A program made the translations under genes and the position numbers. The notes beneath the pieces are model-generated. The model was not told the DNA's origin. It made no database searches and saw nothing but the letters and a program-made list of their open reading frames with translations. From positions 1 to 25,720 of IMG/VR virus record IMGVR_UViG_3300046656_000751: a stretch of 25,720 nt of DNA; one strand, 5' to 3'. This DNA comes from a virus. Positions 7,868 to 25,720 of the stretch are shown here, piece after piece; the stretch's first letter is position 1, and each line of letters begins with the position of its first letter.

Positions 7868-8920
7868 ATGAAATATCTTATTATTGCAATGACAATAATG
7901 TGTACTCTTGCGTTTGGAAATGATGATGCCCCCCCAACACAAAAGCATCATCACCAGAAGACTTATCACACGAAGAGATACAAAAGGCATGCAAAAGGTT
8001 TGAGACATCCCCTTGCGGCGCGCAAGATGATGGAAGCCATGACGTGCGTATCCTTCTTAGAGAAGGACTCCCCTATCCCTCAATCTACGGACTTATCAGC
8101 GAAGGTAAGCTTGCCTGAGGATCAGGGCCAGTGTGGATCCTGTTGGGACTTTGCCTTAACAAAAGCGCTTAGGTCCGAATACATGCTTGCTAATGTAGAT
8201 CCCGGGGTCTTAGAATTTAATTATCTCCTTAGTAACTGCGGACCCGGTCCACATATGTATGGATGTCAAGGTGGGGATTTTTCAGCAGCGCATTCCTTTT
8301 TGAGTGGGTCGGGTCCCGGATTAAATTCTCAAAACCCCTATGTTCAGAAGATGACTCAATGTAAGCATTTGCCCGTTCAGGCAACGGGCAATGAATACTT
8401 CATGCTAGGGACGAAACAAAATCCAACCTTCAAAGATATTGCCTACGCTGTCGGAGTAGAGCATCACATGCTCGCCATTGACGTCGCCGCAGGGCAAGGT
8501 GAATGGGAAAGTTACTCCGATGGGATTTACAATCATTGCCGCGGCAAAGCATCCAACATAGACCATATGATTGATTTGGTGGGATACAACTGTGAGACGT
8601 CAGTTGATTCACAAGGCCATTGCTCCTTTGATGCAGCGGGGAAGCCCGTGAATAAAGATGGGTACCTCATTGTGCAGAATAACTGGGGTGAGGATTGGGG
8701 AACTGAAGCAGCGAATGGACATGGGGGTTACATGAAAATCCGCATGTACGGTGAGGATGGATCTAAATGTAATGCGATTGCGACGCATGCGCTCATGTTT
8801 AAGATCAATGCGCCGAGTCCCGTGCCGACGCCTAGTCCATCGCCGGATAATAAGAAGTGCTCAGGTTTCCTATGCTCTACCTTCAGTTGTCATTTACCGT
8901 GGTGCAAATGGGAACCTTGA
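7868..8920 (+). CDS. Secreted papain-like cysteine protease (C1A type)
   Basis: 350 residues. Residues 1-17 are a signal peptide (MKYLIIAMTIMCTLAFG), followed by a His/Lys/Arg-rich segment that may be a short propeptide. The catalytic core is complete: oxyanion Gln86 and nucleophile Cys92 in DQGQCGSCW, a CQGGDFSAA region as in papain's disulfide loop, His233 in IDHMIDLVGYN, and Asn271 in VQNNWGEDWG. Residues about 316-331 are a Pro/Ser linker (SPVPTPSPSP) and the last ~18 residues hold four cysteines (CSGFLC...CHLPWC). It should be exported and disulfide-bonded in the envelope or outside. Such enzymes are rare in phages; roles could be envelope or S-layer degradation, or a conversion factor. 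Promoter and ribosome-binding signals are weak. Confidence 0.85.
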   Translation: MKYLIIAMTIMCTLAFGNDDAPPTQKHHHQKTYHTKRYKRHAKGLRHPLAARKMMEAMTCVSFLEKDSPIPQSTDLSAKVSLPEDQGQCGSCWDFALTKALRSEYMLANVDPGVLEFNYLLSNCGPGPHMYGCQGGDFSAAHSFLSGSGPGLNSQNPYVQKMTQCKHLPVQATGNEYFMLGTKQNPTFKDIAYAVGVEHHMLAIDVAAGQGEWESYSDGIYNHCRGKASNIDHMIDLVGYNCETSVDSQGHCSFDAAGKPVNKDGYLIVQNNWGEDWGTEAANGHGGYMKIRMYGEDGSKCNAIATHALMFKINAPSPVPTPSPSPDNKKCSGFLCSTFSCHLPWCKWEP

Positions 8921-19088: not shown

Positions 19089-19556
19089 ATGGTGCTATCA
19101 GGAATACCTATGCCGCCCTCCGTCAACAACGCATATCCTTCATCAAGGACTGGTAGACGCTTCAAATCAAAGGAGCTCACCTCATGGGAAAGACAGTTCC
19201 AAGTCTGGGCTTATGAGCACTACAAAAAAGTTGAGGATATACGAAAGCAAATGCTGACCCGATTACCCGGGCAATATTTACTCATCAAGTCACACTTTTA
19301 TTTTACGCGTCAAAGCGTCATCACTAAGGAAGGGACGCCCAAAAGAAACGGTAAGGGCGGTGGGGATACGTCTAACCGCCTTAAAGTACTTCACGATGCG
19401 ATTAGTAAGTTGATTGGTATAGACGACGTGTGGTTCTTCGATCTTACAGCCACGAAGCGTTTATGCGGGATAAACATGAATCCGCAATGTCTCGTTGAAT
19501 TAGAATGGGTTGAGGCTCCTTGGATGCTAAACCCAACGGCTCCATTGAAGCATTGA
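19089..19556 (+). CDS. rusA: RusA-like Holliday junction resolvase
   Basis: 155 residues from ATG 19089; the adjacent GTG 19092 has slightly better spacing from GAGG. N-terminal strand GIPMPPSVNNAY and the catalytic region GGGDTSNRLKVLHDAISKLI, then GIDDVWFFD (D93, K99, D103, D112, D113) fit the RusA family, which cuts branched recombination intermediates and can help packaging. In most RusA proteins the loop reads DxDN; here it reads DTSN, with Ser95 where a metal-binding Asp would be. Reduced activity or a compensating ligand is possible. The last three codons lie within repeat unit 1 (from 19548). Confidence 0.75.
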   Translation: MVLSGIPMPPSVNNAYPSSRTGRRFKSKELTSWERQFQVWAYEHYKKVEDIRKQMLTRLPGQYLLIKSHFYFTRQSVITKEGTPKRNGKGGGDTSNRLKVLHDAISKLIGIDDVWFFDLTATKRLCGINMNPQCLVELEWVEAPWMLNPTAPLKH

Positions 19557-19760
19557 AATGGAAATACAGGCAGGGCGCGACTCCTGCTGATGGTAGACCG
19601 ATTGCGTTCGGTACATTCGATACCGTCTATTAATCCGTTATCGCACAAGGATTAACGAATAACCTTGCCGTATCGCGTGTCTCCAGTGGGTACTACCAAA
19701 ATATTTTGGGTCGTTCGCCACATGCTTTCCACGCCGCTGTATTTCCATGGCCGGATATAC
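19548..19760. repeat. Tandem structured unit 1 (A-C-B blocks)
   Basis: Block A 19548-19588 (starts AAGCATTGAAATGG), block C CGCGTGTCTC at 19674-19683, block B 19724-19760 (starts GCTTTCCACGCCGCTG). ATGGAAATACAG in A (19558-19569) pairs perfectly with CTGTATTTCCAT in B (19737-19748), so the unit closes on itself. The interior holds hairpins (CGGTA/TACCG, TTAATCC/GGATTAA) and a 14-bp palindrome CCAAAATATTTTGG (19696-19709) between C and B. No gene. The whole 19557-20214 gap has only such structures. Confidence 0.7.
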
Positions 19761-19771
19761 ACTTTTAGACC

Positions 19772-20016
19772 AAGCATTGAAATGGAAATACAGGCAGGAC
19801 GCGATCCCTGCTATCTCATCTATTTTTGATTCCGAGTAACGGTCCCCTCCCTTTTACAGGGGGGCGCTTCTTCCTCGCCCGCGTGTCTCTAAAAAATGAG
19901 TATTGGGGAATCGAACCCTGACCTCTCGGACCATTCTTTCGAATGTGCATATCACCGGTTATGCTTGAACTCATTTTTAGCTTTCCACGCCGCTGTATTT
20001 CCGTGGTCAGGTATAC
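19772..20016. repeat. Tandem structured unit 2 (A-C-B blocks)
   Basis: Block A repeats 19772-19812 (38 of 41 bases identical to unit 1), block C 19880-19889 is identical, block B 19980-20016 is 33 of 37 identical. Interiors differ: here A to C contains CCCCT/AGGGG, and C to B holds the tRNA-like fold (19889-19980), exactly filling the gap. The terminal complement TGGAAATACAG / CTGTATTTCC is kept. Duplication with strong conservation of edges and turnover of contents. Confidence 0.7.
19889..19980 (-). ncRNA. tRNA-like structure without an anticodon
   Basis: Read leftward: a 12-bp outer stem CTAAAAATGAGT / ACTCATTTTTTAG (one bulge), a D-arm GCAT...ATGC with GG in the loop (CCGGTG), a hairpin CATTC-GAAA-GAATG with a GNRA tetraloop in the place of the anticodon arm, a short segment GGTCCGAGAGGTC like a serine/leucine tRNA piece, and a T-arm with loop TTCGATT but only three good stem pairs (GGG/CCC). 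It cannot decode. It may be a tRNA fossil, a mimic, or a processing signal. Confidence 0.45.
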
Positions 20017-20077: not shown

Positions 20078-20187
20078 TAAAAAAAAGTAAAATAAATTAT
20101 AGATTCTGAGTAAAATGGTTTAATCATTAAGACTCGCATAAAACTAATCCCGGGGGGGATAAACATTTTTACATTTAAATTATTTAT

Positions 20188-20595: not shown

Positions 20596-20792
20596 GATTT
20601 AGCCTAATCGTCCTGATATTACTTTTCTGTTTAGGTTGTAGTTATCCTGGAAAGAGAACTATTCAATTATCTGACGGTACGATTGTAAGATGTTTTTATA
20701 CTGAAAATCATTGCGGAGCAGAATTATATGATTGCGATGATGGATCCACGTATACTTGTCAACTTAATGTGAAGATGCTTCCGAATAAATGA
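20592..20792 (+). CDS. Small lipoprotein
   Basis: 66 residues. MRFSLIVLILLFCLGCSYPG is a bacterial lipoprotein signal with lipobox LGC (Cys16 lipidated). The mature part is about 50 residues with four further cysteines (VRCFYTENHCGAELYDCDDG, then TYTC), probably two disulfides. ATGA overlaps with both neighbours make it part of the terminase operon. A phage lipoprotein may act as an outer-spanin or as a superinfection exclusion factor; its place between terminase subunits argues for an inserted gene. No family recognised. Confidence 0.6.
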   Translation: MRFSLIVLILLFCLGCSYPGKRTIQLSDGTIVRCFYTENHCGAELYDCDDGSTYTCQLNVKMLPNK

Positions 20793-22150
20793 CCATCGAG
20801 ATCCGCCCCCAGAAAGGTCCGCAGGAAGTACTTCTCTCTTCCCACGCCGATATTTCGATCTTCGGCGGCGCCGCTGGTAGCGGGAAGACATACTCCCTTT
20901 TACTTGATCCACTCAGGCACTATAATAATCCACATTTCGGCGGCGTGATCTTTAGGCGCACCTCAGTTCAAGTAAAGAATGAAGGCGCGTTGTGGGATGA
21001 GAGCATGAAGCTATATCCTCTCTTCGGAGCAATCCCACGTGAACACACCATGGAGTGGAGATTCCCTAGAGGCATGAGCCTCTCATTCAGTCACTTGGAA
21101 TACGATAAGGATATATTTTCATGGCAAGGAGCACAGCTTGCTTGGGTCGGCTTTGATGAGCTGACTCACTTTACTGAAAAACAATTCTTTTATCTCATGT
21201 CACGCTTACGCTCTACATCGGGTGTTAAGCCTAGGATCCGTGCGACGTGTAATCCTGATCCTGATTCCTTTGTGCGTAGGTTTATAGACTGGTGGATAGG
21301 CGACGACGGGTTCCCTATCAAAGAACGCTCAGGGGCTCTGAGATGGTTTATCCGGCGTAATAATGAATTTTTATGGGCTGATTCTAAAGAAGAATTGATG
21401 CGGCAGCATGGCGCTGACAGTCGACCTAAAAGCGTTACCTTCATTGCAGCAAAGCTTTCAGATAATAAGATTCTCATGGATAAGGACCCTGACTATTTAG
21501 GCAATCTCCTTGCACTTAATTGCGTTGATCGGATGCGCCTTCTTGATGGGAACTGGAATATTAGAGAATCTGCTGGACTACTTTTCAAACGGCAATGGTT
21601 CCCTATGATTGATGCCGTACCAGCAGGTTCGATACAAGCGGTAAGGTATTGGGATAGGGCAGCAACTAAACCACATGAAGGAAATAAGGACCCTGACTGG
21701 ACCCGTGGGCTTAAGCTTTACAAATATGGAGATGGAACTTTTGTCATCGTCGATCTTAAGTCCCTACGCGACACTCCAGGCCAAATAGAGAAGCTGATTA
21801 AGAATGTAGCGGCACACGATAGTTATTCTGTTACTATCATGAGTCAACAAGATCCGGGGAGTGCTGGGGTATCGGAAGCGGAGCATTTTATCAGAATGCT
21901 TGCAGGTTTTGACGTTCGAGTAGAGACTATGTCTAAAGATAAAATAACTCGAGCAAAACCAGTATCGGCTCAGTGTGAAGTAGGAAACATCAAAGTATTA
22001 AGGGCACATTGGAATGAAGAGTTTTTTGGAGAACTAGAAAATTTCCCAGATCCTAAGTCACATGATGATATTGTAGATGTATTTAGTGGGGCATTCAACT
22101 CGATGAGTCAAGGGTTATCAACAGTAGATGCATTTTGGGGGAATAGATGA
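20789..22150 (+). CDS. terL: Terminase large subunit
   Basis: 453 residues, usual length. ATPase: Walker A FGGAAGSGKTYSLLL (residues 25-39), Walker B LAWVGFDELTHF with Asp123-Glu124, coupling motif ATCNPDPDSF. C-terminal RNase H-like nuclease: YWDRAATKP (first Asp), IMSQQDPGSAG and SHDDIVDVFSGAF. It cuts and pumps phage DNA into proheads, docked on the portal encoded next. Overlaps by ATGA the lipoprotein gene and the portal gene. Confidence 0.9.
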   Translation: MTIEIRPQKGPQEVLLSSHADISIFGGAAGSGKTYSLLLDPLRHYNNPHFGGVIFRRTSVQVKNEGALWDESMKLYPLFGAIPREHTMEWRFPRGMSLSFSHLEYDKDIFSWQGAQLAWVGFDELTHFTEKQFFYLMSRLRSTSGVKPRIRATCNPDPDSFVRRFIDWWIGDDGFPIKERSGALRWFIRRNNEFLWADSKEELMRQHGADSRPKSVTFIAAKLSDNKILMDKDPDYLGNLLALNCVDRMRLLDGNWNIRESAGLLFKRQWFPMIDAVPAGSIQAVRYWDRAATKPHEGNKDPDWTRGLKLYKYGDGTFVIVDLKSLRDTPGQIEKLIKNVAAHDSYSVTIMSQQDPGSAGVSEAEHFIRMLAGFDVRVETMSKDKITRAKPVSAQCEVGNIKVLRAHWNEEFFGELENFPDPKSHDDIVDVFSGAFNSMSQGLSTVDAFWGNR

Positions 22151-23862
22151 GTCTATTAGATCAATTCGGTAATCCAATGGGTCCTTATTCTGAAAAGAAA
22201 ATAGAAAATGACATGTTTCAGTTTAATCCATTCGGATTCCCAGCCAATCAAGCGGCTCCTGGAACGGCTCCCGTTGAGAATGTAAACACGATCTTTCGGA
22301 ACCTACGCTGGTATCTCGTTTCAAATTTCAGGCAAGTACTGAGTCAATGTTTTGTGGAGATTGGCCTTATCCAAACGATATGCAAGACCCCTGTTCAAGA
22401 TGCACTACGTGGTGGGATTGAATTAAAATCCAAGCAACTAGACGAAGAGCAGATCCAAGAATTACAAATCTCATTAGATCGGGATGATAATTTAAATACA
22501 GCAGGGCAATCTCAAATCTGGAATAGACTTTATGGGGGGGCTGGCATTCTTATCCTCACTGATCAGGATCCGGAAGAACCTCTTGATTTAAGCATCATTG
22601 GTTCTGATACCCCACTGGAATTTAGAGCAGTCGATATGTGGGAACTATTCTGGACAGCTCAGAATACTGAAGGATATGATCCTGCAATTCAGACACAAGA
22701 TTTTGATTATTACACTTACTATGGAGAAAAGATACATAAGTCCCGTGTAATGCGTATCAAGGGACTTGAGGCTCCTAGCTTCATTCGCCCTCGGTTGAGA
22801 GGTTGGGGATTTAGTGTAGTTGAGATCTTAGTTAGATCGATCAACCAATACCTCAAAGCAACTGACTTAGGTTTCGAAGTACTCGATGAGTTTAAGATTG
22901 ACGTGTACAAGATTAAGAACCTTGTCAATACGCTCCTATCGCCTAATGGACAACAAAAGATCCATCAACGTATTCAGATGGCGAATCTGCAAAAGAACTT
23001 TCAAAATGCATTAGTGATGGATTCCGAAGATGACTGGGATCATAAGCAGCTTTCCTTCGCTGGCCTTGCTGAAACGATGCAAGGGATTAGGATCCAAGTC
23101 GCATCTGACATGAGAATGCCGTTAACCAAGTTATTCGGTATCTCCGCTGCGGGATTCAATTCAGGAGAAGATGACATCGAAGTTTATAATGCGATGGTCG
23201 AAAGCGAAGTCAGGAGTAAGATGAAGTATGACTTGCTTCGTATCTGTGAAATTAAATCTCAAAAACTATTTGGATTCATTCCTGATGATTTATCTATTTC
23301 CTTTAAGCCTCTTCGAGTGTTGGGTGCTGTTGATGAAGAGACAGTAAAGACTCAAAAATTTACACGTTTATTACAGGCTAAGGCTCAAGGGGAGATCACT
23401 ACTTATGAGTTTAGGGAATCATGTAACAAAGGCGGTCTTTTCGATATCACATTGGATAACGCTGGGGATGTCCTTAATCCTAATGATCCTCAGGTTAAAG
23501 AAGTGGTGAAAGAAGGGATGGAGAATCCATACAACCCTGTTGACGTAGATGATCCCGGCGCCAATAAAGCAGATACGAGAAAAGTACGCTCATGGGAATA
23601 TGGTGGCGTAGGCAAAGAACCTAAGAAGCCAGGAGCTGATGACGTTACTGTAGAGAACTCGGCCGCCTTTGATAAGGCGAGCTATGAAGCTGATGGTGGG
23701 GATAATTGGATAGGCGATGATCGTATGAGACTCATTACGACACTCACAATGGATAAGCCGGGCTTATGGCGAGATGCGATTCAAGAGAGTGAACAAATTT
23801 ATGGGAAAAGGAATTTAAAATTCGCAGCATGGCTTTATAAAAAGCGTGGGGGAAGAATATGA
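22147..23862 (+). CDS. Portal protein (DUF1073-like)
   Basis: 571 residues. The N-terminal and central part (LVSNFRQVLSQCFVEIGLIQ; RLYGGAGILIL; VMRIKGLEAPSF) and AETMQGIRIQVASDMRMPLT with GISAAGFNSGEDDIEVYNAM fit the DUF1073 type of phage portal. This dodecameric ring sits at the capsid vertex and is the docking site for terminase. The last ~40 residues (MDKPGLWRDAIQESEQIYGK, then LYKKRGG) form a small separate domain found at the end of several such portals. ATGA overlaps both sides. Confidence 0.85.
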   Translation: MSLLDQFGNPMGPYSEKKIENDMFQFNPFGFPANQAAPGTAPVENVNTIFRNLRWYLVSNFRQVLSQCFVEIGLIQTICKTPVQDALRGGIELKSKQLDEEQIQELQISLDRDDNLNTAGQSQIWNRLYGGAGILILTDQDPEEPLDLSIIGSDTPLEFRAVDMWELFWTAQNTEGYDPAIQTQDFDYYTYYGEKIHKSRVMRIKGLEAPSFIRPRLRGWGFSVVEILVRSINQYLKATDLGFEVLDEFKIDVYKIKNLVNTLLSPNGQQKIHQRIQMANLQKNFQNALVMDSEDDWDHKQLSFAGLAETMQGIRIQVASDMRMPLTKLFGISAAGFNSGEDDIEVYNAMVESEVRSKMKYDLLRICEIKSQKLFGFIPDDLSISFKPLRVLGAVDEETVKTQKFTRLLQAKAQGEITTYEFRESCNKGGLFDITLDNAGDVLNPNDPQVKEVVKEGMENPYNPVDVDDPGANKADTRKVRSWEYGGVGKEPKKPGADDVTVENSAAFDKASYEADGGDNWIGDDRMRLITTLTMDKPGLWRDAIQESEQIYGKRNLKFAAWLYKKRGGRI

Positions 23863-24209
23863 TTACATGGACAGTCGGGATGAGTTTAGATGCGATGGAA
23901 AAGCTTATTATTTTAGAAGCGTATAAGTTTTTCAGATTCAATAAGACAGCGACATCTCAGTCCTTAGGTATTGCTATCAGGACACTCGATAATAAAATTG
24001 AGCAATACAATAAGCAAGCATTGGAAGATCAAGAGCGCCAAGCCAATGATAAAGTAACTCGAGAGCAAATGATGATGCGCCATCGTGGCAATCCCCCTAA
24101 CAATGTGGGCATTCCTTTTTCACCAGGGGTGATTACCGTATCTGCCCCCCCAGTGATATCAACGCCTATTCAACCTGCTGTTGTGATGAATAAATCAAAA
24201 AAAGGATAA
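23859..24209 (+). CDS. Fis-type helix-turn-helix protein
   Basis: 116 residues. Residues 8-50 (SLDAMEKLIILEAYKFFRFN; KTATSQSLGIAIRTLDNKIE) read as a Fis-family HTH: a long helix, then a turn and recognition helix. The rest is polar, with a Pro-rich tail (GVITVSAPPVISTPIQPA). Similar small HTH proteins are found beside portal genes in related phages; whether it regulates late transcription or is structural is unknown. Overlaps the portal stop. Confidence 0.65.
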   Translation: MITWTVGMSLDAMEKLIILEAYKFFRFNKTATSQSLGIAIRTLDNKIEQYNKQALEDQERQANDKVTREQMMMRHRGNPPNNVGIPFSPGVITVSAPPVISTPIQPAVVMNKSKKG

Positions 24210-24213
24210 CTCT

Positions 24214-24867
24214 GTGACTGAATTTAAAGGACACGCTGACCAGAAATTTGGCCACATTACTTATTCTCAAAGCGGAGAGGATTTAATGATCCTCAATCTT
24301 TGTAAGATGATGGGATTAGATAAACCATCTTATTTAGATATTGGAGCTCATCACCCCATTAACATTAGCAATACTGCACTCCTTTATGAGCGTGGATCAC
24401 GTGGAGTGAATGTTGAGGCTAATCCTAATCTGATGGGTGCTTTTTATGAGCATAGGCCATTAGACGTTAATCTTAATTTTGGGGTTGTGATTACAACAAC
24501 GCAATCGGATTGCATCCCCTTTTATTTGGTGGACAAATATTCAGGGCTCAATAGCTTTTTATCAGAGAGCATTGAAGCACATGGATTTCAATGGTCTGAT
24601 AAAATTTACGTTCCAACCATAACGATCATGAATCTCATTCATGATCATTGTAATGATCAATTCCCAGATATCCTGTTCACTGACATTGAAGGGTTAGACG
24701 CAGCGGTATTAGACTCATCCCTTGTAAAAGAATCCCATCCTAAGATTGTATGCTCAGAGCTAAGACATGATGCGCGTGCGATTGAGATGATGGAGCGAAA
24801 AGGGTTTACCCATTATTGCTGCATGGGTGAAAACGATATCTTTATTTGGGACGGGTATATTGATTAG
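24214..24867 (+). CDS. FkbM-family methyltransferase
   Basis: 217 residues, GTG start with AAAGGA 8 bases upstream. YSQSGEDLMIL at residues 17-27, motif I LDIGAHHP at 41-48 for S-adenosylmethionine, VNVEANP at 65-71, and DILFTDIEGLDAAVLDS near residue 150-166 are the FkbM signatures. Members O-methylate sugars or related hydroxyls. It is an inserted function between portal and head genes, probably working with the two glycosyltransferases to cap a sugar on a virion or surface target; that link is inference. Confidence 0.8.
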   Translation: MTEFKGHADQKFGHITYSQSGEDLMILNLCKMMGLDKPSYLDIGAHHPINISNTALLYERGSRGVNVEANPNLMGAFYEHRPLDVNLNFGVVITTTQSDCIPFYLVDKYSGLNSFLSESIEAHGFQWSDKIYVPTITIMNLIHDHCNDQFPDILFTDIEGLDAAVLDSSLVKESHPKIVCSELRHDARAIEMMERKGFTHYCCMGENDIFIWDGYID

Positions 24868-24884: not shown

Positions 24885-25292
24885 ATGGCACTAGAAACTT
24901 TAGAAGATGTAAAGAAAATTGGCGAATTTGATGTAATTGTAATGGACGATTTAAGGAAAATTTGCCCAGAGAAATTCAATGAGTCCGGAGCCATGGATTA
25001 TAAATGGTTCGAGAAAGATATTAGGCCACATAATTTTATTTACATTCGCCGCGATGTCAATTCTATATCTTTCACTTTGCAGAATGGTCCAGTGAAAGAA
25101 TACGGAGTCAACGGATGCCAAGTGGACACATTGATTGAGGCAGCTAAGAAAATCATTGAAGGGCTGAACTCATACTTCCCTTGCCCAGAAAATGGGATAG
25201 CAATTGATTATCTTGAACTCGCTTTACATTCATTAGAACGCCGGAAGAAAGACCGAGAATGTCGCGGAGTTGAAGGGCAGAATAAGGCATAA
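24885..25292 (+). CDS. Tad1/Acb2-like anti-defence sponge candidate
   Basis: 135 residues with AAAGGAA about 11 bases upstream. Residues 61-135 carry a pattern I associate with the Acb2/Tad1 hairpin domain: ISFTLQNGPVKEYGVNGCQV, then FPC, ENGIAI and LERRKKDRECRGVEG. Known members sequester cyclic dinucleotides (CBASS) or cyclic ADP-ribose isomers (Thoeris). Residues 1-60 are an N-terminal addition (FDVIVMDDLRKICPEKFNES, then GAMDYKWFEKDIRP) of unknown role. It is co-transcribed with head genes rather than early genes. The assignment is by sequence memory; ligand cannot be predicted. Confidence 0.6.
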   Translation: MALETLEDVKKIGEFDVIVMDDLRKICPEKFNESGAMDYKWFEKDIRPHNFIYIRRDVNSISFTLQNGPVKEYGVNGCQVDTLIEAAKKIIEGLNSYFPCPENGIAIDYLELALHSLERRKKDRECRGVEGQNKA

Positions 25293-25296
25293 AGAT

Positions 25297-25500
25297 ATGC
25301 TAAGAGAATCTAAATTTGTAGTGCAAGTGATGCTATCAACTGGGAATGCAGTTTATGCATCCTTCACGGATACTCAAATCAACTTAGTCGAAAATAAGTT
25401 TGATGCGACTCAATTTACTTCCCGAGTAAAAGCGGTTGGGTACTGCATGTACGCTAAGGTACAATTTAAAACGTATCGGATCTCTGTCATTGATCTATGA
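25297..25500 (+). CDS. Small beta-rich protein
   Basis: 67 residues from ATG 25297, with AAGG 9 bases upstream; a TTG at 25270 would overlap the gene before. Looks like a single small beta fold (SKFVVQVMLSTGNAVYASFT; VKAVGYCMYAKVQFKTYRIS). Unrecognised. Its stop overlaps the next start (ATGA at 25497), so it is translated with the head genes. Confidence 0.55.
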   Translation: MLRESKFVVQVMLSTGNAVYASFTDTQINLVENKFDATQFTSRVKAVGYCMYAKVQFKTYRISVIDL

Positions 25501-25720
25501 GGGATTATATTGAACTCACACCGATTCAAGAGTCCCCGCAGGCTTATGATGCGATAGAAGCTAGGCTTAAGAAGTTCTTTGTGAAGTACCTCTACTTACC
25601 TCTTCTCAAAGAATTAGAGTTACCCCAAAAGACTATTAAGAACGCTGCCCATTCTGACCCACTCATAAATGCTCTCTTCACTGGCCAAGTAAATTACAGC
25701 GCTAATACCTTTTATGGGAA
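25497..25720 (+). CDS. Minor head / MuF-like protein, start only
   Basis: ATG 25497 overlaps the previous TGA; the frame stays open to the window's end (74 residues seen). RDYIELTPIQESPQAYDAIE, LYLPLLKELELPQK and INALFTGQVNYSANTFYG resemble the N-terminus of phage head-morphogenesis proteins that follow the portal. These are internal head proteins involved in assembly or DNA entry. Truncated by the window. Confidence 0.5.
   Translation, partial: MRDYIELTPIQESPQAYDAIEARLKKFFVKYLYLPLLKELELPQKTIKNAAHSDPLINALFTGQVNYSANTFYG

Follow-up and report, generated by a model that had tools for sequence, protein, structure and literature searches.

A Tad1-branch hairpin protein, probably a counter-defence sponge, encoded as exchangeable cargo downstream of a phage portal gene

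We found that a viral DNA stretch of 25,720 nucleotides (positions 1 to 25,720 of IMG/VR record IMGVR_UViG_3300046656_000751; the window) encodes a 135-aa protein that, judged from its sequence and predicted structure, is a relative of the Tad1 sponge. Tad1 and Acb2, proteins that sequester the alarm nucleotides of bacteria, have been reviewed as sponges (PMC12043709). The protein is probably a Tad1-branch nucleotide sponge that serves phage counter-defence, and its gene exchangeable cargo. As a sponge, the protein would assemble via its hairpin, as Tad1 does, and would bind a nucleotide with which a host Thoeris or CBASS-type system raises the alarm (a cyclic oligonucleotide or an isomer of cyclic ADP-ribose), keeping that signal from its effector. 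The gene would have been acquired into a variable stretch downstream of the portal gene, where relatives keep Acb2-type sponges. Because it lies there, it is probably expressed with the packaging and head genes or by read-through.

This reading is favoured by sequence and profile matches to solved Tad1, superposition of the hairpin, near-invariant positions, purifying selection, the occurrence of close relatives in otherwise unrelated phages and the presence of Acb2-type genes after the portal. Against it count the failure of the Pfam family PF24729 to detect the protein, the absence of R101, T108 and W116, and a leucine, L94, in the place of a phenylalanine.

Sequence relationship to Tad1

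The open reading frame is intact and starts with ATG. The gap that separates it from the stop of the preceding gene is 17 bases long and holds an AAAGGA ribosome-binding-like stretch. A preliminary description, made from the sequence alone, had placed a probable Tad1/Acb2-type sponge here on the basis of a C-terminal pattern, and both the frame and the pattern (NGPvKEyGVNGCQ...ENgiAI...DREcRGVEG) are present as claimed. The gene and its two parts are as follows.

24885-25292, + strand: Tad1-type hairpin protein, 135 aa (ORF call, sequence matches, AlphaFold2 model)
24885-25073, + strand: N-terminal part, residues 1-63, with predicted elements E15-19, H20-26, H39-49, E52-55 and E60-63 (AlphaFold2 model, loop classes)
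25074-25289, + strand: Acb2/Tad1 hairpin, residues 64-135, with H80-97, H101-127 and the tail RGVEG (CbTad1 superposition, CmTad1 profile match)

Using phmmer against 177,635 sequences, we found a match to CmTad1 (8kbb) with E 1.5e-11, covering residues 25-133 on chain positions 16-130, and a match of the hairpin only to phiKZ gp184 (8y6v) with E 5.3e-8. By sequence, the similarity to these solved hairpin proteins is far over chance. A profile search also returned CmTad1 (2.5e-16), and PHROGs placed the protein in phrog_2428 (1.3e-18). The Pfam search proposed in the preliminary description gave a divided answer: the protein itself had no match even at E<=1, and two 70% identical relatives, on contigs L005 and L008, exceeded the gathering score of PF24729 (Acb2/Tad1 hairpin). 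That the protein belongs to the Acb2/Tad1 hairpin superfamily and lies closest to Tad1 within it was nevertheless borne out by phmmer, by the profile search and by the structural superposition described below.

Homologues that are 45-73% identical occur in dozens of viral contigs. One hairpin-pattern scan of IMG/VR yielded 354 tblastn-confirmed stretches, of which 80 were retained; Tad1-type counter-defence would thereby come to include a large clade found in uncultivated phages. Two pattern sets applied to 84,980 species genomes led to no relative, a result that bears on those patterns only, and the whole window had no near match among phage records. PEKFNESG.MDYKW was strongly invariant in the first alignments, but no weight was given to this, since the scan patterns came from that segment; other loop forms surfaced once hairpin patterns served for scanning.

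Predicted fold and N-terminal part

An AlphaFold2 model built from 44 natural sequences had a mean pLDDT of 93.1 and contains the two-helix hairpin fold. Modelled residues 64-135 superposed on gcADPR-bound CbTad1 (7uaw) with Z 10.7 and rmsd 1.5 over 72 residues, and the unrelated rows of that comparison scored Z 6.4 or lower. In a viral structure library there was one outstanding full-length match, A0A516MPI8 (TM 0.93, 48% identity), below which came named Acb2/Tad1 hairpin proteins. Twelve residues (G74, N76, C78, Q79, C100, E102, N103, R120, R124, R127, E130 and G131) are near-invariant in 90 distinct hairpins. Synonymous differences were saturated while pN was 0.11-0.27, and therefore both halves of the protein are under purifying selection.

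The first 60 residues had been described as an extra N-terminal extension, and this did not hold. Although 63 residues precede the hairpin, Tad1 has a similar length there: CmTad1 has 132 aa, and Tad1's own N-terminal part takes up about 50-60 residues, forming a four-stranded sheet (PMC12043709). Three strands and two longer helices were predicted in residues 1-63 of the protein studied here. Structural alignments to Tad1 leave these residues uncovered, and when modelled alone (a small query, pLDDT 85) they matched neither a PDB fold (best E 4.0) nor the Tad1 N-terminus. Sixty-six distinct proteins of the clade have in common their start (MALETLKG..IGGF.V) and the strand ahead of NGP, and the part between is variable. 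The stretch before the hairpin accordingly comes in three classes, long (63-65 residues, as in the protein studied here), medium (49-57) and short (40-48), with residues about 20-48 making up the long form of the length-variable loop. Conservation of this form equals or exceeds that of the hairpin (pN 0.11-0.17 vs 0.20-0.27 in six comparisons, with some of the relatives found via long-form patterns). The best match of residues 1-67 among isolated phages had an E of 0.8, and the long loop thus did not turn up among the cultured phages searched. We conclude that the N-terminus is not an add-on and is normal for its own family. In two further genes (L015:6004-6372 and L016:736-1104) the N-terminal 67 residues are kept at 55% identity and the C-terminus is unrecognisable to Pfam as a hairpin.

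Like Tad1 (CmTad1, 8kbb; CbTad1, 7uaw and 8kbf), the protein falls within a length of about 125-135 aa, has an N-terminal part with predicted strands followed by a two-helix hairpin, and shares the hairpin loops, a conserved Asn (N103) and a G-x-E-G-type tail. Unlike Tad1, it has an NGCQ motif, carries Leu instead of Phe before the inter-helix loop and is missing R101, T108 and W116. Acb2 is a short protein with an N-terminal helix and hairpin and no N-terminal sheet (PMC12043709), an architecture that does not fit the strands predicted before the hairpin. The protein belongs with Acb2 in the same hairpin superfamily (PF24729), and Acb2-type genes occupy the same stretch in relatives, but those Acb2-type proteins have 76-90 aa and a short N-terminus, whereas ours has a strand-containing N-terminal part. 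The clade probably consists of Tad1-type sponges, with an N-terminal form of its own.

Genomic position and mobility

The gene lies in the head operon, as had been described, with terL (at 20789), portal, HTH gene, FkbM methyltransferase, the 135-aa frame and orf67 in that order; orf67 sits between the frame and a conserved gene from 25497. The following genes define the stretch.

22147-23862, + strand: portal gene, which bounds the variable stretch on the left (PF06381, 7.9e-60)
23859-24209, + strand: small Fis-type HTH gene dividing the variable stretch (PF02954, 2.4e-5; synteny)
24214-24867, + strand: FkbM-family methyltransferase, neighbouring cargo gene (PF05050, 1.1e-15)
25497-25718, + strand: first part of a conserved gene, about 325 aa long in relatives, which bounds the variable stretch on the right (synteny)
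L151:5751-6023, L154:5394-5621, L157:4231-4395, L158:4230-4493, L168:5032-5310 and L196:1096-1365: Acb2-type hairpin genes of relatives, right after the portal or one gene later

The gene order in 53 portal relatives is terL, portal, Fis-type HTH gene and conserved downstream gene; the number of variable genes interspersed ranges from none to several. The HTH gene is kept after the portal in most of the relatives long enough to show it, and two of them (L183 and L188) have the FkbM methyltransferase at the same place. A Tad1-type gene was found in none of the 53, a dozen of which end before the stretch and many of which reach past it. On six contigs, an Acb2-type gene stands between portal and HTH gene; these six genes represent five distinct proteins, the L157 gene being a truncated copy of that in L158, and in Pfam three of the five score over the PF24729 gathering score and two under. 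The gene for the 135-aa protein is found across the HTH gene from these, at a different point of the same stretch. Because six contigs carry an Acb2-type gene after the portal, we conclude that the portal-downstream stretch is a counter-defence cargo slot, a variable stretch that houses Acb2-type or Tad1-type genes in related phages.

Ahead of the packaging genes lies a gap with terminator-like stems, at 19539-19811 and 20147-20160 of the window. Two of the stems, at 19587-19570 and 19811-19794 on the - strand, are close copies of one another, and each is followed by the same CTGTATTTCC.

Relatives that are 60-73% identical sit on contigs with almost no other gene in common with the window. 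Four of them (L002, L005, L008 and L012) have replication or recombination genes nearby, and two (L006 and L010) have terminase, portal or head genes; L014, a 49% relative, is flanked by a podovirus-type connector on one side and head genes on the other. With 66 neighbours considered on each side, the annotation met most often was terminase large subunit on the downstream side (phrog_2 alone accounts for 10), and exonuclease, helicase loader, endolysin, DNA methyltransferase and tape measure were also found. The gene is thus mobile, exchangeable cargo, and its late-operon place is not conserved. The late position had earlier been taken as a sign of another task. The different modules of the relatives, and the Acb2-type genes in the same portal-downstream stretch, speak against this, and the late position is ordinary for such cargo in this lineage and gives little hint of a special task.

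Two forms of hairpin helix 2

The strongest alternative concerns the ligand and starts from the following segment.

25185-25235, + strand: residues 101-117 (PENGIAIDYLELALHSL), which open hairpin helix 2 and here lack R101, T108 and W116 (two-state signature among 90 distinct hairpins)

A motif resembling C-R-E-N..A-I-T-K-L-E-E-A-L-M-W is common to the Tad1 proteins that have been solved or tested. R101, T108 and W116 are present in CmTad1, CbTad1 and SBSphiJ7 Tad1 and absent from the 135-aa protein, in which N103 is kept and L94 aligns to the Phe of CbTad1. This Phe is F82, a gcADPR contact, and N103, which lies between R101 and T108, corresponds to an Asn that contacts gcADPR in CbTad1; a literature search for F82/N92 mutants found no paper. 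R101 and T108 are seven residues apart and hence on one face of the helix. Both are present in 53 of the 90 hairpins, both absent in 32 and mixed in 5, a co-variation whose Fisher value ignores kinship. W116 is also missing in 20 of the 32, the 135-aa protein among them. A tree built without the helix-2 segment gave at least 14 state changes, but it is poorly resolved, and its well-supported branches force only 2.

The clearest single case of a change between the states is a natural pair of genes. Over L103:2381-2500 the DNA of L103 and L117 is 97-100% identical; over 2591-2680, the helix-2 segment, it is 57-63% identical; identity is 90% again at the tail and mostly 64-87% in flanking blocks. 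This pattern suggests that the helix-2 segment was swapped by local recombination, although rapid change of the segment may also account for it. The state without R101 and T108 is found in phiKZ gp184 as well (CEENQVVINSMDRALSAI).

It is conceivable, if not the likelier case, that the form without R101, T108 and W116 binds another ligand or partner than the tested sponges, and such a protein may still be a sponge. The near-perfect co-variation, the recurrence of both states over the tree, the L103/L117 genes that differ mainly in this segment and the form of gp184 point in this direction. However, the N103, NGCQ and RGVEG elements are retained in both forms, and the absent state is more variable, so it could be relaxed rather than redirected. 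That the helix-2 segment sets ligand choice is a guess. Somewhat more tentatively still, the first half of helix 2 might be an exchangeable two-state cassette (R101-T108-K109-W116 present or absent), passed by recombination between near-identical genes, through which phages would switch the alarm nucleotide that they absorb; the 135-aa protein would then share its state with the injected gp184. If the two-state helix is such a specificity switch, nearly identical natural pairs, L103 and L117 for example, make ligand choice by phage sponges testable.

Packaging and structural alternatives

phiKZ gp184 (L145:2030-2722) is annotated as structural, is a chain of the solved structure 8y6v and was reported to enter cells by injection (PMC10449902). 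The same hairpin makes up its last 70 residues (phrog_22140), which are homologous to ours and likewise without R101 and T108. Unlike our protein, gp184 has 230 aa and an unrelated N-terminus, and it is an injected virion protein (PMC10449902). A literature search under the gp184 name found no other paper and no mention of a link to the Acb2/Tad1 hairpin, which does not by itself prove the link new. With such a hairpin in gp184, one may ask whether there are sponges that enter the cell by injection.

Were the sponge packaged in the virion, to be injected along with the DNA, late synthesis would make sense, as it would serve the next infection at time zero, and the late-gene position, gp184 and two Tad1-like proteins annotated 'structural protein', Lactococcus phage 1706 orf71 (L146:3866-4219) and Bacillus phage P59_140 (L147:2857-3219), agree with this. 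We nevertheless consider it unlikely. The close relatives on L002, L005, L008 and L012 are in replication or recombination modules, so that expression from the head operon is not a conserved trait; a virion-targeting segment could not be recognised in the 135-aa protein; the N-terminus of gp184, about 150 residues, is unrelated; and neither of the two 'structural' annotations was traced to an experiment. The head position as a packaging signal was dropped, as relatives sit in unrelated modules. We suggest that gp184 keeps packaging possible for the family and offers no evidence for it in the 135-aa protein.

A head morphogenesis or other structural protein reusing the hairpin fold would agree with the position among head genes and with the structural annotations of some relatives, but it is very improbable, since a required gene would follow its partners and this one was found in none of the 53 portal relatives, many reaching past the stretch, and has relatives near unrelated genes elsewhere. 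The Tad1-branch sponge is therefore the reading that we prefer.

Elsewhere in the window, an open reading frame at 7868-8920 has a papain-like signature (DQGQCGSCWDFA), recognised by eye in the translation.
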